From a virus: a DNA stretch of 31,957 nt. The translations under genes were made by a program, and so were the position numbers. The stretch spans positions 1 through 31,957 of the IMG/VR virus record IMGVR_UViG_3300020119_000206; one strand, 5' to 3'. Each line of letters starts with the position of its first letter. The stretch's first letter is position 1. Of the stretch, positions 2,142-28,757 are shown in pieces. The notes beneath the pieces are model-generated. The model made no database searches, had not been told where the DNA came from, and worked only from the letters and a program-made list of their open reading frames with translations.

Positions 2142-3652
2142 GGGTTGTAGACGATCCGACAAGCGTCCCAGCCGATCTTGTTCGACGAGCTGGAAGCGTT
2201 CTTCGTGCCGCTGACCTCGACTCGGATCGAGCACGTCCCGCCGCCGAGTCTCGTGCTCATGAACACCTGATTTTGGTAGCTCACGCTCGCTGCGTAGAGG
2301 TCGACCGTAGTCACCAGCGTGAACGCGCCGCCGCTGTCCGCGATGTAGATATTGGCGATCCCGCGGTCGGGTCCTTTGGTGGCGAGCACGCCGAGGTGGC
2401 GACAGCGAACATGCGAGAATTCGACCTTGTCGTTCGTTGTGACAGACGTGACCTCGGTCCCGTCGAAAGGTCCCGCGGCAACAGCGCTCTCCGTCCACGT
2501 GCCGGTGCGCGTGAAGTTTGTCTGCGCCGCGCACAGCGAGTACATGTAGTGCTGCGGGTACACGCCGGTCTTATACCACAGCATCACGTCGAGATAGCGA
2601 CGCAGCTCCTGTACGGTCGGGATGACGCCGTGACCGGTCTCGGTGTTCTCCGAAAGCGCATGGTAGGCGAGCAGATCCGGCAGGCCGATGCCGCCTGTCT
2701 GGTTGTCCTCGAATTGTCGCGAGATGTGCGACTGAAGCTCGGGCATCGTCGGCTGGTCGGCGAAAGCGATGTTGTCGCTGGCGCCCTTGGGCCGCGCATC
2801 GTTGCCCGCGGTGACGTCGACCGCCTTCCACTCGCCGCCGCCCGGAGACTGCGAAAGCGTCACGTCGCTTGAACGAACGACGTCCCAAGCGTAGCGGCCA
2901 GGACCCGCGAAACCCGACGGTCCGGGGTTGGGCCCGTAGGTTGTGCGCACAAGCCGCGACGCCTTGGAGAGGTGAGCGCTTGCCGCCGTCGAGTTGTGGT
3001 CCTGGATGATTATATAGGGCAGCGTACCGCTAGCAATCACGCCCGCTGCGACCATCGCCGCCGTGATCGCGTCGAGTTCAGCAAGCCACGCCGTCTTGTT
3101 GCCCGACGACATCGCCGCGTAGCTGTAGACGCCGAGCACCGGCTGGCCGCCGATCCGCATGTACTGCGAATCCTGCATCTGCGTGACCAGCCACGCGCGG
3201 TACACGGAGTTACGGCCCCCGTCGCCGGGCAGTGGTAGCGAGCTGTTGTACGAGTACCAGCTCGGGTCGATCATGAACCCGAACTTTACCAATGACTTGT
3301 ACGCGCTCGCGCGGTGCGCGAGGTACATCGTCATCAGCTGCGATTGCAGCGGGGCGTTTTGGGGGTCGCCAGTGAAGCACTCGAGCGGTGGATACCAGTC
3401 GTATTGAATCCACTGCACGGCCCCGGCGAGGTCTTGCAGAGTCTTGTCGTGGCCAGCCTGCGAGTCGATTCCTGAGCCGTATTGGCGATGATTCGTCCAC
3501 GCGAGCGGGCGGCGGTGGCCATAGTCGGTGAAAACCCTCGCGATAGTCGTCGCGCCGCCGATGAAATTGAGAAACGTCGTGTCGTCTTTTGTGTAGCCGT
3601 CCCAGGCGACGGTCATCACGGGGCAGCCGTAGCGGACGATCGGCGCGCTCAT
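2138..3652 (-). CDS. GH99/GH71-like glycoside hydrolase with C-terminal beta-sandwich, putative tail depolymerase
   Basis: A 504-aa protein. The start at 3652 overlaps the previous stop as ATGA; the frame stays open upstream, but that part is antisense-like Arg-rich noise. The N-terminal ~370 residues look like a TIM barrel of the GH99/GH71 ('endo-mannosidase/glucanase-like', WbsX-like) kind: QYDWYPP (83-89), a helix with QSQLMTMYLAHRASAYKSL, FGFMIDPSW (124-132), then YMRIGGQPVLGVYSY (164-178) and LPYIIIQDHN. Residues about 385-504 form a likely carbohydrate-binding beta sandwich, with a GIANIYIADSG strand, a VDLYAASVSY turn and a final IGWDACRIV strand. I cannot assign catalytic residues. 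It lies with adhesin-like genes, so a virion-borne enzyme cutting host glycan is the best guess. The fold call is moderately sure; the substrate is unknown. Confidence 0.65.
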   Translation of the reverse strand: MSAPIVRYGCPVMTVAWDGYTKDDTTFLNFIGGATTIARVFTDYGHRRPLAWTNHRQYGSGIDSQAGHDKTLQDLAGAVQWIQYDWYPPLECFTGDPQNAPLQSQLMTMYLAHRASAYKSLVKFGFMIDPSWYSYNSSLPLPGDGGRNSVYRAWLVTQMQDSQYMRIGGQPVLGVYSYAAMSSGNKTAWLAELDAITAAMVAAGVIASGTLPYIIIQDHNSTAASAHLSKASRLVRTTYGPNPGPSGFAGPGRYAWDVVRSSDVTLSQSPGGGEWKAVDVTAGNDARPKGASDNIAFADQPTMPELQSHISRQFEDNQTGGIGLPDLLAYHALSENTETGHGVIPTVQELRRYLDVMLWYKTGVYPQHYMYSLCAAQTNFTRTGTWTESAVAAGPFDGTEVTSVTTNDKVEFSHVRCRHLGVLATKGPDRGIANIYIADSGGAFTLVTTVDLYAASVSYQNQVFMSTRLGGGTCSIRVEVSGTKNASSSSNKIGWDACRIVYNP

Positions 3653-4977
3653 GGCCAGCTCAGCAGCCCAGCTTCGCCGAGTCCGTGTGTTCCGTGCGTG
3701 ACGCCCGACGGATTGGTCTGCGCGGCCGTGCTGGCGCCAGTGCCGCGCACGAACTTGAACGTCCCGCTCTTCAGCTCCCACAGGAGCGCGTATCCAGCCC
3801 AACCGCCCGCGCCGCCTTGGCCGCCGCCTCCGGTGCCGAAACCGTCGCCGCCATCGCCAGCGTCGCCGCCAGACACGTCGATGAAGTTTGTTGCGCTGCC
3901 GATGATCTCGCCGAAGATGCCGAAAAAGAGGCCGCCACCGCCGCCACCACCGCCCGCTCCACCGCCGCGGTTGCCCGCCGTGGCCGAGCCGCCATTGCCG
4001 CCCTTGCTGCCCTTCATCCTGAACAACGCCGTGGATTGGCCGTTCAGGATCAGTTTGCGTGCCGCGACGTAGCCGACCGGGCAGCCTGCGCCGCCTCCGC
4101 CACCACCACCGCCAGCCGTGCCATCACCGCCACCACCACCACCGCCTGCGCCGCCGTAGCCGCCGTAAGCCGTCGCTGGCGCACCTGTGGCAGCGGCCAT
4201 GCCGGTGGTCAAAATGTCGATTGGCGGCGCGCCCCACGTTCGGGTGCTCGCGCCCGTGTTGGCGCCGCCCGCGCGCGCTGCACCACCTGCGCCGCCGGAA
4301 CCAGCCCCGCCCGCATTGCCAGCCCCGCCCGCGCCGCCGTTGGCAAACAGCGTCGAGGTGGGCGCCGCGCCCTGCGTGCCAGCAGCAGTTCCGCCCGCGC
4401 CGCCCGCCGTGCCCGCGAAGCCGATGCCCATTTCGAAGCCGTTGGTCAGCGTCGAAAGCGTCGTCCCTGCGGAACCGCCCGTGGCGACCGCAGACCCATT
4501 TCCGCCCGCCACCGGCGTGTAGCCGATGCCAGCGGCCGGCATGTTGGTCGTGTCGAGTGTTCCGGAGCTTCGAAACGGAAGGCCGTTGAAAAACAGCGTT
4601 TCGGTCGCTGCTGCCTGCCAGGACAGGTTGCGGCGAAACATCTCCGTCGAGGTGATCGCGGTCGTCGAGCTGCCAGTGCGGATCGAATCCGAGACCGACA
4701 TACCGAAATATGCGGCGAGCATGCCGAGCGCGGTGAGCATCAGCGGCGAGATGTCGGTGATTATTTCGCGGTGTGTGGCGCTGACGCCTGTCGTCGCCGG
4801 CACCCAAAGGCGACCCTCATCAAGGGTCTTGTACAAACGCCCTTGATCGACGTCGTCCTGGGTCCTATTCGCTGCCAGCAAGGTAGCGAGGTCAGCGGGC
4901 GATCCGGAGAGCAGGCCATGCATCTCGCCCCCGGCCTGATTTGTGAGGGTTGCTGCAGTTTTATGATTGCCTGACAT
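3649..4977 (-). CDS. Glycine-rich tail adhesin-like protein, 442 aa
   Basis: The ATG at 4977 has GAGGA about ten bases upstream. Residues 1-150 are a normal mixed-composition region (LSGSPADLATLLAANRTQDD at the start, a possible helix MLTALGMLAAYFGMSVSD). From about 160 to 400 the protein becomes glycine-rich, with many GGAGG and GGGGGGGG blocks interrupted by short normal segments such as YVAARKLILNGQSTALFRMK. It closes with a beta segment (YALLWELKSGTFKFVRG). This is the composition of phage receptor-binding tips built from polyglycine-II helices and of the Gly-rich domains in Mu-like and T4-like tail fibres. The downstream GH-like gene overlaps its stop. Role in receptor binding is inferred from composition and position. 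Confidence 0.7.
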   Translation of the reverse strand: MSGNHKTAATLTNQAGGEMHGLLSGSPADLATLLAANRTQDDVDQGRLYKTLDEGRLWVPATTGVSATHREIITDISPLMLTALGMLAAYFGMSVSDSIRTGSSTTAITSTEMFRRNLSWQAAATETLFFNGLPFRSSGTLDTTNMPAAGIGYTPVAGGNGSAVATGGSAGTTLSTLTNGFEMGIGFAGTAGGAGGTAAGTQGAAPTSTLFANGGAGGAGNAGGAGSGGAGGAARAGGANTGASTRTWGAPPIDILTTGMAAATGAPATAYGGYGGAGGGGGGGDGTAGGGGGGGGAGCPVGYVAARKLILNGQSTALFRMKGSKGGNGGSATAGNRGGGAGGGGGGGGLFFGIFGEIIGSATNFIDVSGGDAGDGGDGFGTGGGGQGGAGGWAGYALLWELKSGTFKFVRGTGASTAAQTNPSGVTHGTHGLGEAGLLSWP

Positions 4978-10658: not shown

Positions 10659-10674
10659 GCGCCTAGCTAGGCGC
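10659..10674. terminator. 16-bp perfect palindrome between convergent stops, possible bidirectional terminator
   Basis: GCGCCTAGCTAGGCGC lies between the lipoprotein stop (10653-10655) and the fibre stop (10667-10669) and includes the latter. A hairpin would have a six-bp GC-rich stem and a four-base loop. No T-tract follows on either strand, so intrinsic termination is uncertain; it could also be a protein site. Confidence 0.3.
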
Positions 10675-11686
10675 CGAAGTTGAACGTAACGACGACGACG
10701 CCCTGGGCGCCATCGCCGCCAGCTCCGCTTGTGGTGCCAGCCTGACCGCCGCCGCCGCCGCCCGCGCCGTAGCCCGTACCGCCTGGTCCACCGTTGGTGG
10801 GTATCGCTCCTAGGCCCTGGGAGCCTATTGCTCCTGAAATACCAGGGAAAAGACCGCCGCCGCCCCCGCCAGGACTTTGGCGTGAGCCTACACTAGCAGC
10901 GCCCAGCCCACCCGGACAGCCGCTTAGAGCTCGTGTTTCTGTGCCAGCGCCGCCGCTACCGCTCCCCGTACCTACAGCCCCGTCACTACCTGAAGCGCCT
11001 CTGAAGCCGCCCGCACCGCCAGCCCCAGCGGCCACACCGCTAGCACCACCACCACCCGAATAACCGTCACCACCTGCGCTACCGGGCGCGCCTTTGCCGC
11101 CTTCACCAATTACATCAAAACCTGTAGATAAGTCTCTGAATGTCGATGTGCCACCGTCACTGCCAGCGTTGGCCGGATTGGCGCCGGTAACCCCGACAGC
11201 TCCGCCGGCGCCGCCAGCGCCGACGAAAACGTCGAACGTGGGCCCGAGCAAAGCACGCTCTATCCGCTCGAGCCGCACATAGCCGGAACCGCCGCCGCCG
11301 CCGCCGCCAGTCGTCGTATTACCAGCGCCAGAGGCCCCGCCGCCGCCGCCCCCCACAGCCGTCACCTCGATAGATGTCACGCCAGCTGGGATCGCGATTC
11401 CAAAAGCCGTAACCGTGTACGTGATGACCTGCGCCCCTAGAAGCGCGCGCAATGCATCCAGATACTGCGAGGCACCGACCTTGTCGGGGACGTTGCTCGG
11501 CGTGATGCCCGCGCCAGCGAGTAGGGCCTGCTGAAACCCGAAGATGTCGTTGACGAGATCTTTTTCGAAGGGCGTGCCCGTGCCGTCCCCCTCGACGCCA
11601 ATGTTCCGCGCTTTGCCGTGTGGGTATCCGACGGGGTCAGTCGTGTCTACTTGACCGGGGTATCGGGCGCTGGGATCGAGTGCCAT
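10667..11686 (-). CDS. Glycine-rich tail fibre/adhesin, 339 aa
   Basis: The ATG at 11686 follows the gp47-like stop by seven bases. Residues 1-95 form a normal fibre lead (DTTDPVGYPHGKARNIGVEG, then a helix KDLVNDIFGFQQALLAGAGI and ASQYLDALRALLG). Residues about 95-115 (TYTVTAFGIAIPAGVTSIEV) are the strand that usually precedes a Gly-rich tip (compare 'f-t-x-x-G-t-f-x-v-P-x-G-v-x-x-v'). The remainder has repeated GGGGGG and GGAGG blocks and closes with GVVVVTFNFGA, the typical end of Gly-rich fibre domains. A (CCG)6CC run at 11289-11308 encodes one Gly block. It probably forms a receptor-binding tip. It sits between gp47-like and gp48-like genes, an unusual place. Confidence 0.75.
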   Translation of the reverse strand: MALDPSARYPGQVDTTDPVGYPHGKARNIGVEGDGTGTPFEKDLVNDIFGFQQALLAGAGITPSNVPDKVGASQYLDALRALLGAQVITYTVTAFGIAIPAGVTSIEVTAVGGGGGGASGAGNTTTGGGGGGGSGYVRLERIERALLGPTFDVFVGAGGAGGAVGVTGANPANAGSDGGTSTFRDLSTGFDVIGEGGKGAPGSAGGDGYSGGGGASGVAAGAGGAGGFRGASGSDGAVGTGSGSGGAGTETRALSGCPGGLGAASVGSRQSPGGGGGGLFPGISGAIGSQGLGAIPTNGGPGGTGYGAGGGGGGQAGTTSGAGGDGAQGVVVVTFNFGA

Positions 11687-19731: not shown

Positions 19732-20130
19732 CTACTGCTTGGTCAGCTTGTCGGGCCCCATCAACGTGATTGGGCACGTCGAGTTCTTGGTGCTCTTCTT
19801 CAGGTCGCCGGTGATGGTCCCGCGCCCTTGGTGCGTCGCGCCGTTCACCTCGGTCAACGTGATGTCGTAGAAACCGTCGTCGCCAGCGTCCTTGCCGTCG
19901 GCGATGTCCTGCAAGAACTTCATGTCGTCACGGTTGTCGTCGATCGATGCTGTTAGCCCGTCGATCGACCAAGGCTTTGCGGTCAGGATCTTACGGGCCG
20001 TCAAGTCGCCGTTCGACTGCACTTCGGCTGAATATCCGCCAGAATCGCGATTGCCGTCCGCGTCCGACGCGACCGTGAAAGGTCGGCCCTTGATGGAGAA
20101 GTTTTTGATCGAGCCGCCAATTGCGCCCAT
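19732..20130 (-). CDS. Tail tube protein, Mu gpM-like, 132 aa
   Basis: Begins MGAIGGSIKNFSIKGRPFTV with AGAAGGA upstream of the ATG at 20130. The pattern (small G-x-x-x-x-F-x-x-x-G-x-x-F-x-v-x-x-d-a-x, then GGYSAEVQSNGDLTARKILT, PWSIDGLTASIDD, and GTITGDLKKSTKNSTCPITL) is that of the contractile-tail tube family of Mu-type phages. It lies between sheath and chaperone genes, the standard order. The first 130 bases are also covered by the overrunning sheath frame, which is not expected in this family. The tube forms the inner channel through which DNA passes. Confidence 0.85.
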   Translation of the reverse strand: MGAIGGSIKNFSIKGRPFTVASDADGNRDSGGYSAEVQSNGDLTARKILTAKPWSIDGLTASIDDNRDDMKFLQDIADGKDAGDDGFYDITLTEVNGATHQGRGTITGDLKKSTKNSTCPITLMGPDKLTKQ

Positions 20131-22016
20131 GGTCTTGGTCCTTCTGCTGACTGAGTTGTTGGCGCGGACACACGACTGCCAGCGCGCCGCCGGAGCGGCG
20201 CGTCAGGCAGCGCGCGGAGCGCTGGAGTTGCGTCTACGCGATAGCCGTTGCCGTAGAAGTAGCCAAATTTCAAAGTTGCGGACTTCACGTTGGTGTTGCC
20301 CGAGAGCTGCACTGTGACTTCCCACACGAGACCCTTGGGGTTCTGCGCGCTGATGTCCGCTTTGATTGTGGCGATCGCCGTGGCAGGGTCGCTGATAATG
20401 GCGGCCTTGCCGAGATTGCCAACGACGCCAGCGATCACGCCCTTGGCGTGCTTCGGCTGGCGCGCGTTCGGGTTGGTGACCGTCTGGATGTCCGGAACCA
20501 TCGGGGCGCCCGCCCACTCAGTCGTCGCGAACGGAAGCTTCAGGTTGTAGAGGCAGTTCTGGAGCTTGACGATGTCGACCACGTACCGATAGGCCGGGTC
20601 TTGCTCGCCAGTCGGGTGGTAGAACGTCACGACGTCGGCAATGGTCACCACGCCGTCGATGACGTCAGTGCTCCCGCAGCCAGCCTTGAGCGCGAGGTCC
20701 TTCGTGGCGTAGTCCCATTGCTGGCCGTCGGTGCCGGGCACGATACCCGTGAGCTTCAGCGCGCCGTAGTCGGTCGGCGGATTGTTGTTCGCCAGCGACG
20801 CGATGCGCGCCACAGCTCGAGCGGCCACCACGAACGGCAGGTTGACCGAGCCTGGGGCAGGGATAACCGCGTTGGTGCGGTCGGTGGGGCGCGCGCTCGG
20901 TACCGCGGCTGCGGTGGCCTCGGCCGCTGCAGTGTTGCCGCAGATAGCCACGAGCGGTTTCATCACCAGATCATTCCAGCGCCCTTCACCGAAGGTGCTC
21001 AGCAGGTCGAGCGTCGCGGTGTCGTCGATGTTCATCGCGTTGAGCAGAATCGTTTGCCATACGCTGCCGATCTGATTGAGGGCCGCGGTGATGCTCGGAT
21101 TGACGAGGCCGCCGGCGGGCTGGGTCATGGCGTAGGAGACGCCAAGCGTGGAGTCGCCGATCATTTCGAGGACGATCCCGTTTGCGCTGGCGCCCTTCCA
21201 CTTCGAGGTGACGGTAACCTTCGTCGCGGGAACGGTGATCGTGAACGTGGCACCGAGACCGAAGTCCGTGCTGCCGTCCGTGATCGTGAAGTCGAGTCCG
21301 CCGATGTTGCTAAACACGGTGGCCGTGCTTGCGCCGACCGTCTGGGTGATGTTGTCCGCGACGACAGCACCGGTCGAGTCGAGCAACTGCCAGACGCCAC
21401 CGTTCACCACGGCGGTCTTGACCTTGAGCGTGTAGACACCGGCGATCGGCGTCGCCCCAGCATGCACGGCCAGCGCGGTAATGGTTCCGTTACCGGTGCC
21501 CACCAGCGCGCTTGCCGTGACGGTGCCGTAAGCAAACGTCGGAATCACCGGCATGTCGAGCACGCCGACGATGGAGTTGTAGATCTTCGCGCATGTCGCG
21601 GTCACGTCGACAGCGCCGGCTGGAACCACGAAAGCCAGCGAGAGAATGCCGGCAATTCGAACTTGCCACGATTGGCTCACCGTGGCGGTCCCGCTCGGTG
21701 TGATGTCGCCGACAGCAGCGGTCGCCGAGGGGTCGTCCGCGAGCGGGTAGAAAGTCACGGGCACGGTGCCGATCCCGTCGCCGTTGTTCGGGAACAGCTG
21801 CTCGGCGACTAGGTGAGCTGGTGAGCCGAACCCCAGCTTCTTCGCTACGTCCACCGCGGAAGTCGCTTGAAACTTGGTCGTCGAGAACGTGACTGCGCTC
21901 GACATCTGCGCGAGCACGCCGACCTGCTGCGGGAGATTCAGAATGCTGCCCGTACGCAGGTTCACAAATTGCGTAGCAATGCCGAGGACTCGCGCCCTGG
22001 CGGTTACGTCGACCAT
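20001..22016 (-). CDS. Contractile tail sheath protein (Mu gpL-like) with inserted beta domain and abnormal C-terminal overrun
   Basis: A 671-codon frame. Residues 1-170 (TSAVDVAKKLGFGSPAHLVA, EQLFPNNGDGIGTVPVTFYP) and 265-600 (SKWKGASANGIVLEMIGD, FGEGRWNDLVMKPLVAICGN, AVARIASLANNNPPTDYGAL, then DVVTFYHPTGEQDPAYRYVV) match Mu-type sheaths. Residues 173-263 are an extra beta domain closely related to one in the head decoration protein. The normal protein probably ends near residue 600-605 (GYFYGNGYRVDATPALRALP). After that the frame encodes Arg/Ser-rich sequence and overlaps the tube gene by 130 bases, so the last ~65 residues look like out-of-frame reading: a lost stop or a frameshift (real or sequencing) near 20200-20260. 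A TGA lies in another frame at about 20204-20206. Role: contractile outer tube. Confidence 0.82.
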   Translation of the reverse strand: MVDVTARARVLGIATQFVNLRTGSILNLPQQVGVLAQMSSAVTFSTTKFQATSAVDVAKKLGFGSPAHLVAEQLFPNNGDGIGTVPVTFYPLADDPSATAAVGDITPSGTATVSQSWQVRIAGILSLAFVVPAGAVDVTATCAKIYNSIVGVLDMPVIPTFAYGTVTASALVGTGNGTITALAVHAGATPIAGVYTLKVKTAVVNGGVWQLLDSTGAVVADNITQTVGASTATVFSNIGGLDFTITDGSTDFGLGATFTITVPATKVTVTSKWKGASANGIVLEMIGDSTLGVSYAMTQPAGGLVNPSITAALNQIGSVWQTILLNAMNIDDTATLDLLSTFGEGRWNDLVMKPLVAICGNTAAAEATAAAVPSARPTDRTNAVIPAPGSVNLPFVVAARAVARIASLANNNPPTDYGALKLTGIVPGTDGQQWDYATKDLALKAGCGSTDVIDGVVTIADVVTFYHPTGEQDPAYRYVVDIVKLQNCLYNLKLPFATTEWAGAPMVPDIQTVTNPNARQPKHAKGVIAGVVGNLGKAAIISDPATAIATIKADISAQNPKGLVWEVTVQLSGNTNVKSATLKFGYFYGNGYRVDATPALRALPDAPLRRRAGSRVSAPTTQSAEGPRPWAQLAARSKTSPSRADLSRSRRTRTAIAILADIQPKCSRTAT
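21228..21500 (-). repeat. Sheath copy of a ~90-residue domain shared with the head decoration protein
   Basis: Codons 173-263 of the sheath. Hand alignment with decoration residues 57-146 gives about 55 identical positions of 90, including GNGT, GVYTL, NGG-x-W, QTVGA, ATVF and FTITDGS. The DNA is also visibly related. The partner copy is at 25160..25432. Confidence 0.88.
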
Positions 22017-22019
22017 TTT

Positions 22020-22736
22020 TCAGACTCCGAGTGGTGGGGTAGCCGTGAAGTAGATTTCGCCGGTCTCCGCGCGTTTCACGGTTCCGGTGATCGCCTCGAT
22101 GGTCACGCCCTGATATTCGGGCGCATACTCGAGGAAGGAGACTTCGAGCTCAACGCGGCCAAGGCTCACGTTCTCGACTGGGTGCTTGTCGTGCTCGCTG
22201 GCGCTGACTTGTCCGCCCGCCTTGAGCTGGTTGATCCAGCGGTCGCCGACGACGCCGATCATCTGGAGGTTCTCGTTGATCGGAGAGATCAGCGTGTTCC
22301 GAATCAGCCGATAGGCGCGCTGCACCGCGGCGGCGGCGAGCATTTCGCCAGGGTCATGGCCGGTGGCCGTCGCTGTTGCGACGCCATAGCCATAGATGTC
22401 GATGTGGTAGACGGCGTTCGCCTGCTGACGACCCGATGGATCGCTGCGCGCCTTGTCATACTCAGCGTGGTCGACCCACACGTTTACGATCGGCGTGGGG
22501 TCGATCGTCGAAGGGTCATCGTCGCCTTCGGTCGTAGAAGTGAACTGATGCCAGCAGTTCCCGTTCCGCTCCACGAACAACCGGAGCGCCCAATACTGAG
22601 GGTCTTTTCCGGCTGCGAGCGCGATTGCCTGCTGGTTGGCCGACTCGGCCAGCAAGATCGCGGCAATCTGGTCGCGCACGAGCTCGAGCGTGTCGACCTT
22701 GTCGATCAGCGCCTGCAATACCTGCGGTGCGCTCAC
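22020..22736 (-). CDS. Putative tail terminator/completion protein, 238 aa
   Basis: The GTG at 22736 overlaps the upstream stop as GTGA and is preferred to a TTG eight codons earlier. It begins VSAPQVLQALIDKVDTLELV as a helical lead, then DQIAAILLAESANQQAIALA, then a beta domain: GNCWHQFTSTTEGDDD, IVNVWVDHAEYDKAR, NAVYHIDIYGYGVAT, a helix MLAAAAVQRAYRLIRNTLIS and a final SLGRVELEVSFLEYAPEYQG strand. The alternating beta-helix-beta layout and the place between the FII-like protein and sheath fit a tail terminator (compare lambda gpU, P2 gpR roles). Sequence similarity to these is not obvious by eye, so the assignment leans on synteny. Confidence 0.6.
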   Translation of the reverse strand: MSAPQVLQALIDKVDTLELVRDQIAAILLAESANQQAIALAAGKDPQYWALRLFVERNGNCWHQFTSTTEGDDDPSTIDPTPIVNVWVDHAEYDKARSDPSGRQQANAVYHIDIYGYGVATATATGHDPGEMLAAAAVQRAYRLIRNTLISPINENLQMIGVVGDRWINQLKAGGQVSASEHDKHPVENVSLGRVELEVSFLEYAPEYQGVTIEAITGTVKRAETGEIYFTATPPLGV

Positions 22737-23119
22737 GGCTTGTAGCTCGCGAGGTAGCAATCAACCGCATCGATCGAGCGGTCCTTGCGGACCTCGACGA
22801 TCTTGCAGAGATGCTTGCGCCCGCCCATGTCCGTGTACTCCACGAGCCAAGGGCTCTTGTCGGTCTCAGTAACCCCAAGCGGCACGCCGAAGCCAGCTTC
22901 CCGCAGCGCACCGAACGTGACGCGCACGAAGGCCACGGTCGCCGCGATCATCGAGCCGGTCATGGGATCCATGGCCTGCCCGATGTCGTTCCAGAAGCCG
23001 TTCACGACGGCCATCCGCTGGGACGGATCGATGAACGTGAGCGCGCGACCGAAACCACCAGCGACGTCTTCGACGATCGACCGGTGGTCAGCGGCCGCGA
23101 GATCTCGCAGGTTCGGCAC
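22733..23119 (-). CDS. Head-tail joining protein, lambda FII position, 128 aa
   Basis: Short protein at the FII position: after the capsid and FI-like genes and before the tail genes. Sequence opens MPNLRDLAAADHRSIVEDVA and contains FIDPSQRMAVVNGFWNDIGQ, then VRVTFGALREAGFGVPLGVT and KHLCKIVEVRKDRSIDAVDC, a small beta-barrel-like pattern. FII-type proteins plug the portal-tail interface and have about 117 residues. Four-base overlap with the following gene. Family call is by position, size and general shape, not by clear motif. Confidence 0.55.
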   Translation of the reverse strand: MPNLRDLAAADHRSIVEDVAGGFGRALTFIDPSQRMAVVNGFWNDIGQAMDPMTGSMIAATVAFVRVTFGALREAGFGVPLGVTETDKSPWLVEYTDMGGRKHLCKIVEVRKDRSIDAVDCYLASYKP

Positions 23120-23122
23120 CTG

Positions 23123-23617
23123 CTACCTCTTGAATAGGTAGCCGGCGGCGTGGAAATGCTCGAGCTCCTCTTGGCCGCCCGACAAATCACGTGGCGTGAC
23201 TTGCTGGAAGGCGCCCAAGGCGTCTCCGCTGCGTCCCATGACCGTCTTGCCTTCTGCGACGTAGTAGCCCTGAGCACCCGTAGTCGCCTTTTGCGACGCT
23301 GGTGCCGGGGTTGCCGTGCTCACCGAGGAGACTACGGACGCGGTGACAATGGGCGGATCACCCGACGAAGCCTTGTCGGCGCTCTCCGTGGAATCGGCGC
23401 CATCCGGTGGCGAGGGCGCGACGAGCGGTCGCACCGCGGTCTCGACCACGCCACCCGGTAAGACGCTGCCGCCGCCGGCGGCGCCCTGCTGGCGAAGACC
23501 CTCGAGAATCTCCAGCAGCTTGGGATTCTTGAGCTGGTCGAGCCCGTCGGGCACCGCGACGCCGCGCTCCGCGCACAGCGTCACGATGTCCGCGCACAAA
23601 TCCTTGTTGCTCGCCAT
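23123..23617 (-). CDS. FI-position small protein with Pro/Ser/Thr linker, 164 aa
   Basis: The ATG at 23617 is used; a TTG nine codons upstream would overlap the capsid gene. The N-terminal 40 residues (LCADIVTLCAERGVAVPDGL, then DQLKNPKLLEILEGLRQQ) look like a small helical HeH/LEM- or Rho-N-like unit. A long Ala/Ser/Thr/Pro-rich linker follows, then a C-terminal segment (GAQGYYVAEGKTVMGRSGDA, GGQEELEHFHAAGYLFKR). In lambda, gpFI at this position aids DNA packaging. No identity to gpFI is seen; only order supports the analogy. Confidence 0.5.
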   Translation of the reverse strand: MASNKDLCADIVTLCAERGVAVPDGLDQLKNPKLLEILEGLRQQGAAGGGSVLPGGVVETAVRPLVAPSPPDGADSTESADKASSGDPPIVTASVVSSVSTATPAPASQKATTGAQGYYVAEGKTVMGRSGDALGAFQQVTPRDLSGGQEELEHFHAAGYLFKR

Positions 23618-23625
23618 GCTCGAAC

Positions 23626-24726
23626 TCAGAGCACGGTCAGGCAACCGAAGGAGTCGATCTCCGTCGGCACGAGCAGCGGGCGGGCCGCCACGGACAGACT
23701 GAGCGTCTGACCGTCCGGCTCGAGCCAGGCGTTGAGGGTCATGTCCAGACCGCCCGCGCCGTTTGACACGCGCGGCGGCATGAATGGCAGCGCGCGGCCC
23801 TCCGGCTGAGCGATCATCGGTACGGCGCCGAAGGTCGCGTCGTAACGCGCCTTGGACGACAGCATGATGATCTTGTTGTCGGCGACGAACGGCGTCGACG
23901 TGCCCGTCTGCGGGTGGTTGAACCGCCCGTCGTAGCCCCAGAGGGCGTAGCGGTAATTGTTGATCGTGAGATTGCCGAGGAAGTTGGCACCATCGATCCC
24001 AGGGCGGTCGAACACGAGTTGCGTTTGGCCACGCATGAATCCGCCGTAGAAACCGTCGGACTTGAGGATGTCCTTGATCGTCGGATCGGCGAGCAAGCGC
24101 GCCTGCGCATCCGTGCCGAGGATCAGCGTGTCCGGACTCCGACGACCGTCCTTGCGGATCAGCTTGGCCAAGCTATCGATGTCAGCGACACGATTGCCGC
24201 CGGTGCCGTCCGCCGCCCAAACGGTGGTCGTGATGAAGTGCGTGGCCTTCGCAGCGAAATCGAGCGAGAAGACCGCCGTTCCAGCCGCGTTGACCAGCGT
24301 CAGGACGCCAGTCTGGAAGATCTGCGACGCCTGCCATTCGAGCGCGCGACGCAGCTTGCTCTGCATCTTCGAGCTAAGAATCGCTGAGCGGAGGATCGCC
24401 TTCGCCTGAAAAGCGCGCGACTCGAAGGGGTTGTCACCTAGCTCGCGGGTCAGCAGCTGGAAGGCGTTGATTGATCCGACCTCTTTGAAGATCGGAGGCG
24501 TGAACTCCTTGTTGGAGCCGACAGTGTTCTCGTTGAACCGGCTTCCAGTGGCCAAGTCCGTGATGGCCACGGCGACGTCTTCGCCGTCGCGCTGCAGGTC
24601 GATCTCGACCGTCTGGCTCGAGTAGAAGTTCTCGGGCGGGCTCTGGAAAAAGCCCGAGAGAAACAACGGATCGGGCGCCTTCTCGATGAAGGGCCGCAGC
24701 ATAGTTTTGGTGGATGCGTCACTCAT
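23626..24726 (-). CDS. Major capsid protein, lambda gpE-like, 366 aa
   Basis: Begins at an ATG at 24726 with GAAGGAACC upstream; an earlier in-frame extension lacks support. The sequence has the gpE-family signature: IEKAPDPLFLSGFFQSPPEN, SQTVEIDLQRDGEDVAVAIT, ATGSRFNENTVGSNKEFTPP, KEVGSINAFQLLTRELGDNP, then a helix ILRSAILSSKMQSKLRRALE and GVLTLVNAAGTAVFSLDFAA. The C-terminal domain includes LILGTDAQARLLADPTIKDI, RGQTQLVFDRPGIDGANFLG, YALWGYDGRFNHPQTGTSTP and KIIMLSSKARYDATFGAVPM. HK97-fold shell protein. Length is typical. Confidence 0.93.
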   Translation of the reverse strand: MSDASTKTMLRPFIEKAPDPLFLSGFFQSPPENFYSSQTVEIDLQRDGEDVAVAITDLATGSRFNENTVGSNKEFTPPIFKEVGSINAFQLLTRELGDNPFESRAFQAKAILRSAILSSKMQSKLRRALEWQASQIFQTGVLTLVNAAGTAVFSLDFAAKATHFITTTVWAADGTGGNRVADIDSLAKLIRKDGRRSPDTLILGTDAQARLLADPTIKDILKSDGFYGGFMRGQTQLVFDRPGIDGANFLGNLTINNYRYALWGYDGRFNHPQTGTSTPFVADNKIIMLSSKARYDATFGAVPMIAQPEGRALPFMPPRVSNGAGGLDMTLNAWLEPDGQTLSLSVAARPLLVPTEIDSFGCLTVL

Positions 24727-24826
24727 GGTCGTGGTTCCTTCAGAAACGAGGACGCACCGGTGCGCCCCCGCGGGCGCGCGCTGCGCCAACAGGGAAGCTG
24801 GTGGACCCCTTTGGTCCTATGTTGTG

Positions 24827-24863
24827 AGCGCGGCGTCGCTCCGCTGATCGGGAACGCCGCGCT
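24827..24863. promoter_or_regulatory. Inverted repeat in the capsid-decoration intergenic gap
   Basis: AGCGCGGCGT and its exact complement ACGCCGCGCT (24854-24863) are separated by 17 bases. The 181-base gap (24727..24907) also holds a 12-bp palindrome CGCACCGGTGCG (24753-24764) and GCGCCC-CCGC-GGGCGC (24762-24777). No gene is visible in the gap. It is the longest intergenic gap inside the operon, and the hairpins precede the capsid gene in transcription order. They might set the decoration to capsid ratio by mRNA processing or attenuation. No T-tract follows, so a classic terminator is unlikely. Confidence 0.35.
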
Positions 24864-24907
24864 CTCGTGTCTTCAAATAGCGAGCCCGATTACGAGCTCG
24901 CGTGTTG

Positions 24908-25597
24908 TCAGTTGTCGACTCGGCCGAGTTGCTTCACCGACTCGGCGATGATGCCGAACTGGCGCAGTTGATCGCACAGCGCATCCGTGATGCTGCCGCC
25001 GCCATTGATGACGAGCCGTTCCTTGGCGACGCTGCCCTTGATGATCGGCCTTGCTGGCAGATCGCCGGCGCCCGTCGCGGTGAGCGCGCTGGCTAGCACC
25101 ATGCTCGGAATCTGTGCACCGCCCACACCAGCAGTCGCGTAGGGCACCATCTTGCCCACCGCAGCGACCGTGAGTGTGGCCGTAGCTCCAGCAACGAAGT
25201 CCGAGCTGCCATCGGTGATCGTGAACTGCAGGCCGCCCACGTTGAAAACGGTTGCCGCGCCGGCGCCGACCGTCTGTTCCAGATCGTCGGCGATGATCGC
25301 ACCGTTCGGGTCGGTCAGCTTCCACTTGCCGCCGTTGGTCACGGCGAGCAGGCAAGTGAGCGTGTAAACGCCGACCAGCGGAACCGCGCCGGCCACGACG
25401 GTGGCGGCCGAGACGGTGCCGTTGCCGCCGCCGGAGACGGCGGAAGCCGTCACGGTAAGCGCGTCAGCTTGGCGCGCCAGGATGGTGCCGGCGGCAAGCG
25501 TACCCGCGCCAGCGAAGGTGACGAGCTCATCGCGGAACTCGCAACGAGAAATCTCGACAGAACCCTGGTCGAGCGTCGTGGTGGTCATGTTTGCCAT
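24908..25597 (-). CDS. Head decoration protein (gpD-like) with inserted beta domain, 229 aa
   Basis: The ATG at 25597 has GAAGGGA upstream. Residues 1-55 (TTTLDQGSVEISRCEFRDEL, VTFAGAGTLAAGTILARQ) are the opening strand of the head decoration (HDPD/gpD) family. Residues 57-146 form an inserted beta domain (GVYTLTCLLAVTNGGKWKL, GGLQFTITDGSSDFVAGATA), known in several phage decoration proteins and also present in this phage's sheath. Residues 147-229 close the gpD fold: VPYATAGVGGAQIPSMVLAS, KGSVAKERLVINGGGSITDA, LCDQLRQFGIIAESVKQL. The gpD family stabilises the shell at threefold sites. It lies between the scaffold and the capsid gene, the lambda order. Confidence 0.9.
   Translation of the reverse strand: MANMTTTTLDQGSVEISRCEFRDELVTFAGAGTLAAGTILARQADALTVTASAVSGGGNGTVSAATVVAGAVPLVGVYTLTCLLAVTNGGKWKLTDPNGAIIADDLEQTVGAGAATVFNVGGLQFTITDGSSDFVAGATATLTVAAVGKMVPYATAGVGGAQIPSMVLASALTATGAGDLPARPIIKGSVAKERLVINGGGSITDALCDQLRQFGIIAESVKQLGRVDN
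25160..25432 (-). repeat. Decoration-protein copy of the domain shared with the tail sheath
   Basis: Codons 56-146 of the decoration gene. Partner of 21228..21500; about 61% protein identity by hand count, with one single-residue gap. The similarity begins at GGGNGT and stops at TLTVAA, while flanking sequence is unrelated. Confidence 0.88.
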
Positions 25598-25622: not shown

Positions 25623-26030
25623 TTACTTGGTCTCCGGCTTCGGCGGGCCCATGAGCTTCAAAAGCTCTTCGGCCACCTCATCTTCGGCAGTCTTGGCACC
25701 GCCGCCGCCGGTGCCGCTCCCGGACTTGGCACCGTTGAGCACTTTGCCGGCCGCGTCGGTCTCGACCTGGCGGGTATCCACCGCGTTGCGCTTCATCGAA
25801 GCGGCGAGGTAGTCGGCCTGCATGTCGGCCAGGCTGGCACCCGAGGCGATCGCCTTGTGTGCGCTGGGCAGATCGCCACAGGCTTCACCGACTTTGAGGT
25901 GATCGGCGACGCGCTTGCGCTCCGCGTTGATGCCTTCGGTGACGCCGGCGCTATGGCCTTCGGCTTTGCCGAGATTGAGTACCGCGGCGTAGGTCTCCGG
26001 GTGCTCCGACTGAAGAGTCTTCGGATCCAT
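25623..26030 (-). CDS. Nested in-frame scaffold protein (lambda Nu3-like), 135 aa
   Basis: The internal ATG at 26030 (residue 343 of the protease) is preceded by AGAAGGA with a seven-base spacer, one of the best ribosome binding sites in the window. It yields a 135-residue helical, charged protein (EHPETYAAVLNLGKAEGHSA) ending EELLKLMGPPKPETK. Lambda makes Nu3 in exactly this way from inside C. The product would act as inner scaffold and be removed by the protease. Strong by analogy and by the site, not proven. Confidence 0.75.
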   Translation of the reverse strand: MDPKTLQSEHPETYAAVLNLGKAEGHSAGVTEGINAERKRVADHLKVGEACGDLPSAHKAIASGASLADMQADYLAASMKRNAVDTRQVETDAAGKVLNGAKSGSGTGGGGAKTAEDEVAEELLKLMGPPKPETK

Positions 26031-27056
26031 TTTCTTGTCCTTCTGCTTGGGAGCACCGCCACGAGCGGCGGGTGCGTTTTGTTGTGGCGCCGCAGGCGCC
26101 GGTTGAGCTTGTGCCGCGGCCGCAGGGGCGACGGGCGCTTGTCGCTTGGGAGCGATAGGCGCGACTGCGACTGAAGCTGGCGCAGGAGCTGTACCGCCGC
26201 CCCCGTTGCCTCGCCGCTTGGCCTCTTCGCCGTCCTCATCTTGTTCGCCGTCGCCATCTGGCTCAGGCTCGTCGTCGATATCATCGACCGTGTCAGCCTG
26301 AATCGTGACACCCGAGATCGAGTCGATCATGCCGACGCCCAGCGCTGCAGTCGCCAGCAGCACGGCGCCGCGACCGAAATTCTTGGTCACGTCCTTGGTG
26401 GTCGTGCCGCGTCCGCGAACAATCGTGTCGATGAAGAGCTCTTCGATCGCGTCGAGACCTTCGCGGATGACTGCCTGACCCTCTTTGGTGCTTGGATCGG
26501 GCCGCTTATTGGGGGCGTTCGACGACACGATGTCGTAGATGTTCTCGCCGTCGAAGCGAACGTAGGTCGCGCAGACACCGACGCTGCCGAATTCGGAAGC
26601 CTTGCTTCTCGCCGTGATCTTGCCGCCCAGGCAGGCGATGGCATATGCGGCCGAGTCCGCCATCGACGCGATGGTTTCTTTCGGCTTCGAGAAGCTCTCT
26701 AGCGCCGCCAGGCAGTCGAACAGCCCGTCGACATAACCGCCCGGGCTCGAGATGTTGAGGACGACGCGCTTGATGCCGTCGTCGGCGGCCGCAAGCGCTA
26801 GCGCTTGAATGATCTCGGGATATGTGGTGTTGCCACCGCACATCCAGTACGCGTACCAATCGGGCTTTGGCGTGAGCGCGCCCTGGATCACGATCTCCGC
26901 GACATCGCCGGCGCGCTTGAAGATTCGCGGTTCGCCGCTCGCGCTCGCCATCGACCGCTCGCGCTCGAACGCAGCCATCACGACCGGAGGCGGCTGGAGC
27001 GCCTGCGCGCGCGCATGTTCTACGGCCTCCGCGAGGCTCTTTTTCATCAGCAACAT
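25623..27056 (-). CDS. Capsid maturation protease (S49/SppA, lambda gpC-like) fused to scaffold, 477 aa
   Basis: Residues about 45-250 are a S49 signal-peptide-peptidase-like protease: VVLNISSPGGYVDGLFDCLA, then SMADSAAYAIACLGGKITAR with Ser135 as likely nucleophile and SKASEFGSVGVCATYVRFDG. In lambda gpC the same domain cuts the scaffold during maturation. Residues 255-340 are a low-complexity acidic and Pro/Ala/Gln-rich linker. Residues 343-477 form a helical scaffold-like tail (MDPKTLQSEHPETYAAVLNL, GKAEGHSAGVTEGINAERKR). An internal start allows the tail to be made alone (see 25623..26030). Order portal, protease-scaffold, decoration, capsid equals lambda. Start at 27056 is an ATG; other nearby ATG codons would also retain the domain. 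Confidence 0.88.
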   Translation of the reverse strand: MLLMKKSLAEAVEHARAQALQPPPVVMAAFERERSMASASGEPRIFKRAGDVAEIVIQGALTPKPDWYAYWMCGGNTTYPEIIQALALAAADDGIKRVVLNISSPGGYVDGLFDCLAALESFSKPKETIASMADSAAYAIACLGGKITARSKASEFGSVGVCATYVRFDGENIYDIVSSNAPNKRPDPSTKEGQAVIREGLDAIEELFIDTIVRGRGTTTKDVTKNFGRGAVLLATAALGVGMIDSISGVTIQADTVDDIDDEPEPDGDGEQDEDGEEAKRRGNGGGGTAPAPASVAVAPIAPKRQAPVAPAAAAQAQPAPAAPQQNAPAARGGAPKQKDKKMDPKTLQSEHPETYAAVLNLGKAEGHSAGVTEGINAERKRVADHLKVGEACGDLPSAHKAIASGASLADMQADYLAASMKRNAVDTRQVETDAAGKVLNGAKSGSGTGGGGAKTAEDEVAEELLKLMGPPKPETK

Positions 27057-27089: not shown

Positions 27090-28757
27090 CTAGGCGGCCC
27101 TTCCGTTCTTCTTGCCCGGCGTCGCCGGCTGCTCGGGCTCCTCAGGTGGAAGCGGTTGTGAGCTCGCTTTCAGCAGAGCTTGCATCTCGAGCATTGGGCG
27201 CATGGCTTCGGCGAGTTTTTCGTTCTCGCGCTTCAGCTTCTGCACGTTCTTCGAGAATTTCGTGCCGTTGATCTCTCGCGAGCCGCGGTCACGAGTACAA
27301 AAGCCCTGCTCCGCCTGTTCGGTATAGGCACGCGTCGTCTTGAGCATGTCGATCGCGGGCTTTACGTTTCCGCTCCAATCGCTCGACACCCAGGCCGCGT
27401 AGATATAGTCTTTGCGCGCGTCGCTAAAAGCTTCCAAGAAGCCCGTTGCGACAACGCGACCGACGTAGATCTGTGACAGCAGCCAATCTTCGTAGATGGG
27501 CGAACAGAACGAGTCCCCGAAACGCATGCGCGTCGGCGCCAAGAAGAGCTTGAATTCGCTGATCGCTGCTTGGCTAGCGCTGTAGTTGCTGGAGAACGAG
27601 AGGGTGAGAATCTCGGGCGGTATTTCGTTCGCCCAGGCGAAGCTCTGCACCACAGCCTCTTCGAAAACGCCGAAGCCCTCGACGGCTTGGTTGGCCTGAA
27701 ATGTGTGGGGCTTCTCGCCGACCTGCAGCTCCTCGAGCATGATCCCGGGCTCGAATTGCCCAGCCCGAATCTTTCGATCTTTGCCGCTATTGTCGATAGT
27801 ATTGAGATCATCGACCACGTTCGCGCCCATGGTGAGCGGACGCGAACTCATACCGGGTTCGCCCTTCTCGATCCAGATCGCGAGCATCGAGTTCAGCACT
27901 GCTTTGCGCAGCTGCGCATCGCGGTAGCGGTCGATCTCCTTCAGTCCCTGAAGAATCAGGCCGAGCATCGGGGTGCCGCGCACGTCGTCGATGCGCTTGT
28001 CGGTGCCGTAGACCAACCACGCTATCTGCCTACCGGACTTCTCGCCCACGGCGGGTAACCGCTTCGACGACCCATCATCCTGAGTCACCCAAAAAGCGAC
28101 GTGCCGCTTCTGGGCGTCGAGCTCGACGCCGTGAACGATGTTCGCGTCGATTCCCGAATAGGCAGCGTAAGGCGTCTGAACGCTGTTGCCGCTAATCAGC
28201 CTGATGCGCGGGATACGCGTGCGCGGATCCTGCTGGATGGTGACGAGCACATCACCGGAGATGAGCGCCTCGCGATAGGCCTCAGCCTGCAGCGCGCCGA
28301 ACGTCAGACGCTCGTTGAAATCGCACTGATAGCAGTTGTCGGACCAGAGCTTGAATCTGTTCTCGACATCCTCCGACCAGTCAGCAAGAGAGTCTTCTTC
28401 GAACCCGAGGATGCGTTCCTCCGGCGTCGCCTCCAAAAACAGGCCAGAGTTGATGACGTTCGTCACCAAACGGCGGATCATGCCGCGGCCGTAGATGTTA
28501 CGCTCGAAGAGATCGGCGCTGCGCTGCCGCAGTGCCCAGTAATCTTTCCAGAGGATTTCGACGGGACCGAGTCCGCCGGCGAACTTCTCACCGTGGTCCC
28601 AACCTATCCGATAGGTAGGCAGGCTGCCGACGTTGAGCACCGGCGTGACACGTGGAGCATCTTGCGTGGGCACTGCGGGGAGCGACGCCGGTAAGCGTGG
28701 TGCTTCTTTCCCGTAGAAAACGTCCCACAGGTCTTTCTTCTTGCCGATGCCGAACAT
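27090..28757 (-). CDS. Portal protein, lambda gpB-like, 555 aa
   Basis: The ATG at 28757 lies just after the gpW-like stop. Family pattern: YGRGMIRRLVTNVINSGLFL, RFKLWSDNCYQCDFNERLTF, AYREALISGDVLVTIQQDPR, then VHGVELDAQKRHVAFWVT, QIAWLVYGTDKRIDDVRGTP, MLGLILQGLKEIDRYRDAQL and KAVLNSMLAIWIEKGEPG. The clip and stem region contains VVQSFAWANEIPPEILTLSF with SSNYSASQAAISEFKLF, a strong gpB-family hallmark. The C-terminus (KLKRENEKLAEAMRPMLEMQ) is coiled-coil-like, then Pro-rich. Forms the dodecameric DNA gate at the head vertex. Confidence 0.93.
   Translation of the reverse strand: MFGIGKKKDLWDVFYGKEAPRLPASLPAVPTQDAPRVTPVLNVGSLPTYRIGWDHGEKFAGGLGPVEILWKDYWALRQRSADLFERNIYGRGMIRRLVTNVINSGLFLEATPEERILGFEEDSLADWSEDVENRFKLWSDNCYQCDFNERLTFGALQAEAYREALISGDVLVTIQQDPRTRIPRIRLISGNSVQTPYAAYSGIDANIVHGVELDAQKRHVAFWVTQDDGSSKRLPAVGEKSGRQIAWLVYGTDKRIDDVRGTPMLGLILQGLKEIDRYRDAQLRKAVLNSMLAIWIEKGEPGMSSRPLTMGANVVDDLNTIDNSGKDRKIRAGQFEPGIMLEELQVGEKPHTFQANQAVEGFGVFEEAVVQSFAWANEIPPEILTLSFSSNYSASQAAISEFKLFLAPTRMRFGDSFCSPIYEDWLLSQIYVGRVVATGFLEAFSDARKDYIYAAWVSSDWSGNVKPAIDMLKTTRAYTEQAEQGFCTRDRGSREINGTKFSKNVQKLKRENEKLAEAMRPMLEMQALLKASSQPLPPEEPEQPATPGKKNGRAA

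Follow-up and report, generated by a model that had tools for sequence, protein, structure and literature searches.

Immunoglobulin (Ig)-like beta-sandwich domains of ~90-100 residues recur in patchy fashion in unrelated phage virion surface proteins, where a role in weak carbohydrate binding has been proposed (Fraser et al. 2006, as cited in PMC7385642 and PMC9230969). The extra domains of contractile tail sheaths are positioned away from the tube, with suggested roles as adhesins or stabilisers (PMC9230969), domain III of the phage Mu sheath reaches outward and is the divergent domain of that protein (PMC11915804), and decoration proteins of the gpD class form trimers on the outer capsid (PMC11445458). 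Here we describe a beta domain, hereafter the module, that is present in both the head decoration protein and the tail sheath of one contractile-tailed virus infecting bacteria, IMG/VR virus record IMGVR_UViG_3300020119_000206; the window that we analysed is the entire record, 31,957 bases long.

The module resembles the promiscuous Ig-like domains, as these are summarized in the two citing papers, in size, predicted beta-sandwich architecture, and scattered occurrence on virion surface proteins, but differs in having neither a Pfam Big/Ig match above cut-off nor a confident Ig fold match, and in residing within hairpin turns of a gpD protein and a sheath of the same phage. Like the extra domains of type 2 and type 3 tail sheaths (PMC9230969), the sheath copy is an additional beta domain on a conserved core and lies outside the region that contacts the tube; unlike them, it is still 63% identical to a domain of a capsid decoration protein. 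The best fold match for our sheath, gp39 of phage Mu (PDB 9khy), corresponds in size to our protein without its insert (about 495 amino acids), but sheaths of Mu size have no room for the module. Finally, the lambda gpD-type decoration protein (PF02924 HDPD, phrog_49) provides both the scaffold and the gene order portal-protease-D-capsid, but here a hairpin turn has been replaced by one module of ~96 residues. Promiscuous beta domains on phages are already known; new are i) the uncatalogued family, with 63%-identical copies in the head decoration protein and contractile sheath of one phage; and ii) the independent on/off pattern of the module on head and sheath, together with module swaps. We found no report in the open-access literature searched of a module shared by a decoration protein and a sheath.

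BLASTP comparison of the two window proteins yields one strong segment, aligning sheath residues 165-264 (21225..21524, minus strand) with decoration protein residues 48-146 (25160..25456, minus strand) at 63 of 100 identical and 75 of 100 similar positions with one gap (E 4e-33), and no further meaningful match, the sequences flanking the module being unrelated. These figures bear out a previous reading of the window made from its letters alone (the sequence-only reading), which had described a shared beta domain of ~90 residues matching at 55 of 90 positions (61%) between unrelated flanks; its coordinates, including sheath residues 173-263, were correct to within a few residues of those given here. 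The DNA similarity that it reported as still visible is indeed so, but is modest, at 67% identity overall and 55% at third codon positions. The same codon is used at 33 of the 62 identical residues, with 27 expected from codon usage, and such near-expected codon sharing together with modest DNA similarity lends little support to recent copying.

Both copies are skewed in composition toward G, T, A, and V, and two low-complexity Gly/Thr/Ala-rich beta segments could in principle have come to look alike by convergence or compositional bias. The alignment score of 310, however, lies ~26 standard deviations (SD) above that of shuffled sequences (n=1000; mean 7.6, SD 11.8, maximum 51); the predicted strand order and the junction sequence TVTASA...GNGT are the same in both copies; and sheath and decoration copies fall into a joint starred clade (see below). 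The E-value and the shuffles effectively refute chance or low-complexity likeness, to which we assign almost no weight.

The identity of the two scaffolds and the sites of insertion can be read from profiles and alignments. The sheath (20247..22016, minus strand; 590 amino acids in the part that aligns with its family) is a Mu-type contractile tail sheath by both profile (phrog_165, E 5.7e-72) and predicted fold (Foldseek places the phage Mu sheath, 9khy, first, with E 1.4e-27 and a TM-score of 0.79 across the Mu chain). The decoration protein (24908..25597, minus strand; 229 amino acids) is assigned by scaffold profile (phrog_49, E 6.6e-6) and gene position to the lambda gpD type (HDPD), its gene sitting between those for the capsid protease and major capsid protein just as in annotated phages; it scores only 17.6 bits against PF02924, under the cut-off of 29.1, because the insert splits the match, and a module-bearing relative clears that model with 105.5 bits. 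In alignments, module-free decoration proteins read ...GTILARDSVSL-KLVPF... and module-bearing ones ...GTILAR(x)n-module-GKxVPF... (GTILAR...KMVPY in the window), while module-free sheaths read ...LEMPVIAT-DGTTKVDITSKWKG..., VIAT-DGTTKVDI being the sequence at the junction. In both scaffolds, then, the module is a clean insert that replaces a beta-hairpin turn.

Relatives of both proteins commonly lack the insert. A profile scan of viral contigs seeded with the C-terminal half of the sheath gave 80 loci (of 353 sheath matches), and only 9 of these, one a duplicate contig, carry the module in the sheath; the same scan with the whole sheath as a single sequence gave no match. Among cultured relatives (Vibrio, Shewanella, Aeromonas, and Oceanospirillum; 40 listed of 126), sheath matches span 1,430-1,470 bases and leave no space for an insert. 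Of 92 sheath open reading frames (ORFs) collected via the module or the sheath C-terminal half, 18 have the module; intact module-bearing ORFs are 583-627 residues long, and most module-free ones about 490-505. The possibility that the module is a universal feature of this sheath family, raised by the sequence-only reading against itself, is accordingly rejected. For the decoration protein, six cultured relatives were found, all with the match confined to residues 149-229. Cultured phages with a module-bearing decoration protein do exist, Pseudomonas phages being an example.

How did one module come to occupy two scaffolds? In a tree of module sequences, one starred 99/99 clade unites 20 decoration copies of the single-module kind with 15 sheath copies, and outside it lie decoration copies plus a copy from a cement protein (L032); a topology that groups all sheath copies in a single clade is not rejected (p-AU, from the approximately unbiased test, 0.457). 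Since sheath copies nest with decoration copies, the module has moved between scaffolds, and since the rows outside the clade are decoration copies, movement from decoration protein to sheath is the favoured direction, subject to rooting. To this extent the domain transfer suggested by the sequence-only reading is supported, but its placing within this particular genome is not. A recent origin of the sheath copy from the decoration gene beside it, or gene conversion between the two, would account for the fact that, of 31 decoration copies, the one in the window is nearest to the window sheath copy (61% identity, the others at most 57%), and for the QTVGA motif common to both. Yet a clade of sheaths from different phages has the insert in common, and their copies are closer still to that of the window (76, 73, 70, 68, and 67% identity); where a phage has both copies (six cases), its own pair is on average no more alike than permuted pairs (47.6% vs 46.9%, p 0.35); ten phages with the module in the sheath lack it in the decoration protein; and, as given above, third-position identity is 55% and codon sharing is near expectation. 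Recent copying or gene conversion within this genome is therefore disfavoured by the sequence comparisons, and we consider it very improbable.

Across phages, presence of the module in the sheath is independent of its presence in the decoration protein: both proteins carry it in 6 phages, the sheath alone in 10, the decoration protein alone in 20, and neither in 30 (Fisher odds ratio 0.9, p 1.0, although related phages are not independent samples). In a tree of sheath cores, from which the insert was left out, 2-3 changes in module presence are needed, with a single origin not rejected (p-AU 0.403); in the decoration-scaffold tree 5 are needed. One module-bearing sheath (L008:2269-4050) is nested in the sheath-core tree within sheaths that lack the module and has a module nearest to that of L106, possibly reflecting a second gain or recombination. 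Modules and scaffolds also disagree in their degree of divergence: the window and L001 decoration proteins are 75% identical in the scaffold but 51% in the module, L118 and L095 are 81% and 61% identical, and L095 and L064, conversely, are 73% and 93% identical. Such mismatches imply that the module has been exchanged by recombination among decoration proteins.

AlphaFold2 models, run with alignments built from the fetched loci, were obtained for the sheath (predicted local distance difference test, pLDDT, 89.4; predicted template modelling score, pTM, 0.85) and the decoration protein (pLDDT 83.6, pTM 0.69). Structure prediction, a check that the sequence-only reading had proposed, did not give unrelated folds: the module is predicted to be a seven-strand all-beta domain with the same strand order in the sheath (E178-E262: 178-184, 193-203, 206-212, 218-224, 232-238, 241-246, and 257-262) and in the decoration protein (61-67, 76-86, 89-95, 101-107, 115-120, 123-128, and 139-152). 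When the decoration model is compared with PDB structures in Foldseek, FlgL flagellar junction proteins rank highest (E 2e-3 and probability 1.00 over about 120 columns, though with a TM-score of only 0.3 by query length); these hook-associated FlgL/FlgK proteins (5ziz, 7c7z) are, however, only 13-15% identical to the model, and the module profile finds no FlgL match in PDB sequences up to E 10; searches of PDB sequences gave no relatives at all. A FlgK-like protein encoded beside FlgL in genome G002 (L188:210-1484, plus strand) matches the module hidden Markov model (HMM) at E 0.0015-0.005, with a reversed control at 0.6; the other FlgL/FlgK proteins tested against this HMM gave background scores. 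The FlgK match agrees with the FlgL fold match of the decoration model, and the outer domain of the flagellar hook-associated proteins may be distantly related to the module. We raise only tentatively the broader idea that an adhesion-type module with this fold relationship, found also in giant surface-like proteins of bacteria, passes among phage scaffolds and would let a virion coat its head, its tail, or both with one and the same weak binder, the choice being made independently for each scaffold.

The module belongs to an uncatalogued family of ~95-100 residues found in several unrelated virion scaffolds. The sequence-only reading had taken the decoration-protein domain to be already known, but we found no convincing family match for it in Pfam, PHROG, or NCBIfam; 58 module copies searched against Pfam gave isolated sub-threshold matches only, with no Big/Ig model (Big_1, Big_2, I-set) above cut-off. 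Scattered matches of single members, such as those to DUF6180 or MetallophosN, were judged to be chance. Over all loci, the module HMM detects 69 unique decoration ORFs, 22 unique sheath ORFs, and 8 others. The decoration ORFs often contain tandem module copies, and three (L041:7326-8618, L045:1336-2364, and L016:2-1132) have a number of full and partial copies that overlap one another, which suggests that the repeats have expanded and contracted. Elsewhere the module is found i) near the C terminus of cement proteins of the XM1 gp53/E217 gp24 type, a third capsid scaffold (L032:6353-7156, L042:5057-5845); ii) at the C terminus of tail-tube-like proteins with an Ig annotation, where other phages have Ig domains (L181:3531-4385, L183:8443-9294); iii) in a virion protein of 2,985 residues (L050); and iv) in giant surface-like proteins of bacteria, 990-4,169 residues long (L138:3-7124, L186, L193-L199), that of L138 combining the module with Big_1/Invasin_D3 repeats and a Sortilin/BNR-like stretch. 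A scan of genome contigs with the module gave 3 loci, two of decoration type and one giant protein; 19 of 291 genomes in the class of G003 have the module, mostly in giant proteins but with a few of the matches in short decoration-size frames, and a survey of the phylum around G001 found 1 positive genome in 396.

These observations lead us to favour, with moderate confidence, a promiscuous module that moved from decoration protein to sheath in an ancestor and is displayed outward for weak adhesion. Because the module ends lie side by side, it could be inserted into the turn of a beta hairpin leaving the host fold undisturbed. The sheath clade would most likely have acquired it from a decoration protein on a single occasion, which probably fell in an ancestor rather than in this genome; inheritance, loss, and swapping of the module would then have proceeded separately in the two scaffolds. 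Hundreds of copies might be displayed on head and tail and would most likely adhere, weakly but multivalently, to surfaces of the host or the environment, for example glycans, the S-layer, or flagella. A surface role shared by head and tail, as the sequence-only reading had supposed, is plausible from the insertion sites, and an unobstructed outward site would fit the tandem module copies of many decoration proteins; that the module confers adhesion we put at evens or a little better.

The module might instead be a stabilising clamp, an insert that touches neighbouring subunits and so strengthens the lattices of head and sheath without engaging any ligand outside the virion. There are precedents, an Ig-like insert of the tail tube latching neighbours in the chi-like phage YSD1 (PMC7385642) and a sheath domain contacting a neighbour in phage 812 (PMC9230969), and conservation of the module from sheath to sheath is good (mean identity 59% vs 50% for the sheath core). 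But the module is missing from most close relatives of both proteins, so that neither lattice requires it; the same module occurs in geometrically different lattices; and it can be repeated in tandem in decoration proteins and is present in the giant surface-like proteins of bacteria. For these reasons we favour outward display and adhesion over a clamp, which seems unlikely but deserves to be taken seriously. Nor would the patchy distribution and the scaffold-module mismatches be surprising for a selfish, functionless passenger that spreads when its copies recombine with one another and that permissive turns tolerate; however, sheaths retain the open frame and conserved motifs of the module at 50-60% identity, and conservation equal to or above that of the core implies purifying selection on the module, making a neutral passenger improbable.

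Several points weigh against a mobile adhesive module displayed outward. Lattice stabilisation is an equally simple role for the same insert; Foldseek gave no confident Ig-domain match for the decoration model; the direction of transfer depends on an unrooted module tree of about 92 columns; and the loci were gathered with queries near the window, so that frequencies are biased.

The occurrence of the module amounts to a natural experiment in which related phages carry it on head and sheath in all four combinations, and in which it has been swapped between similar decoration scaffolds; the role of extra capsid and sheath domains, a long-standing question, thereby becomes directly testable. It further represents a domain family, competent for insertion, that Pfam and PHROGs lack, and it points to two turns that tolerate insertions (one in gpD, one in the Mu-type sheath). 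It is also a warning that domain matches cannot separate decoration from sheath genes.

The head and tail genes named here, all on the minus strand of the window, follow a Mu/lambda-type order. Upstream of the decoration gene are a putative portal gene (27090..28757), named from its ORF and from an order like that of annotated phages L134 and L135, and a probable protease gene (25623-27056); the probable major capsid gene (23626-24789) follows the decoration gene, and both it and the protease gene are named by order and likeness to annotated phages. Directly downstream of the sheath lies a putative tail tube gene (19732..20130), so called from its position. The sheath ORF itself runs on for ~81 codons past the normal family end (20001..20246, minus strand), reaching 671 residues where relatives have 583-600, and overlaps the start of the next gene, so that the whole ORF covers 20001-22016; the extension may well result from a frameshift, from the loss of a stop codon, or from an error in sequencing. 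Two very glycine-rich proteins with GGAGG repeats, encoded in the tail region at 3649-4977 and 10667-11686, are possibly fibre proteins.

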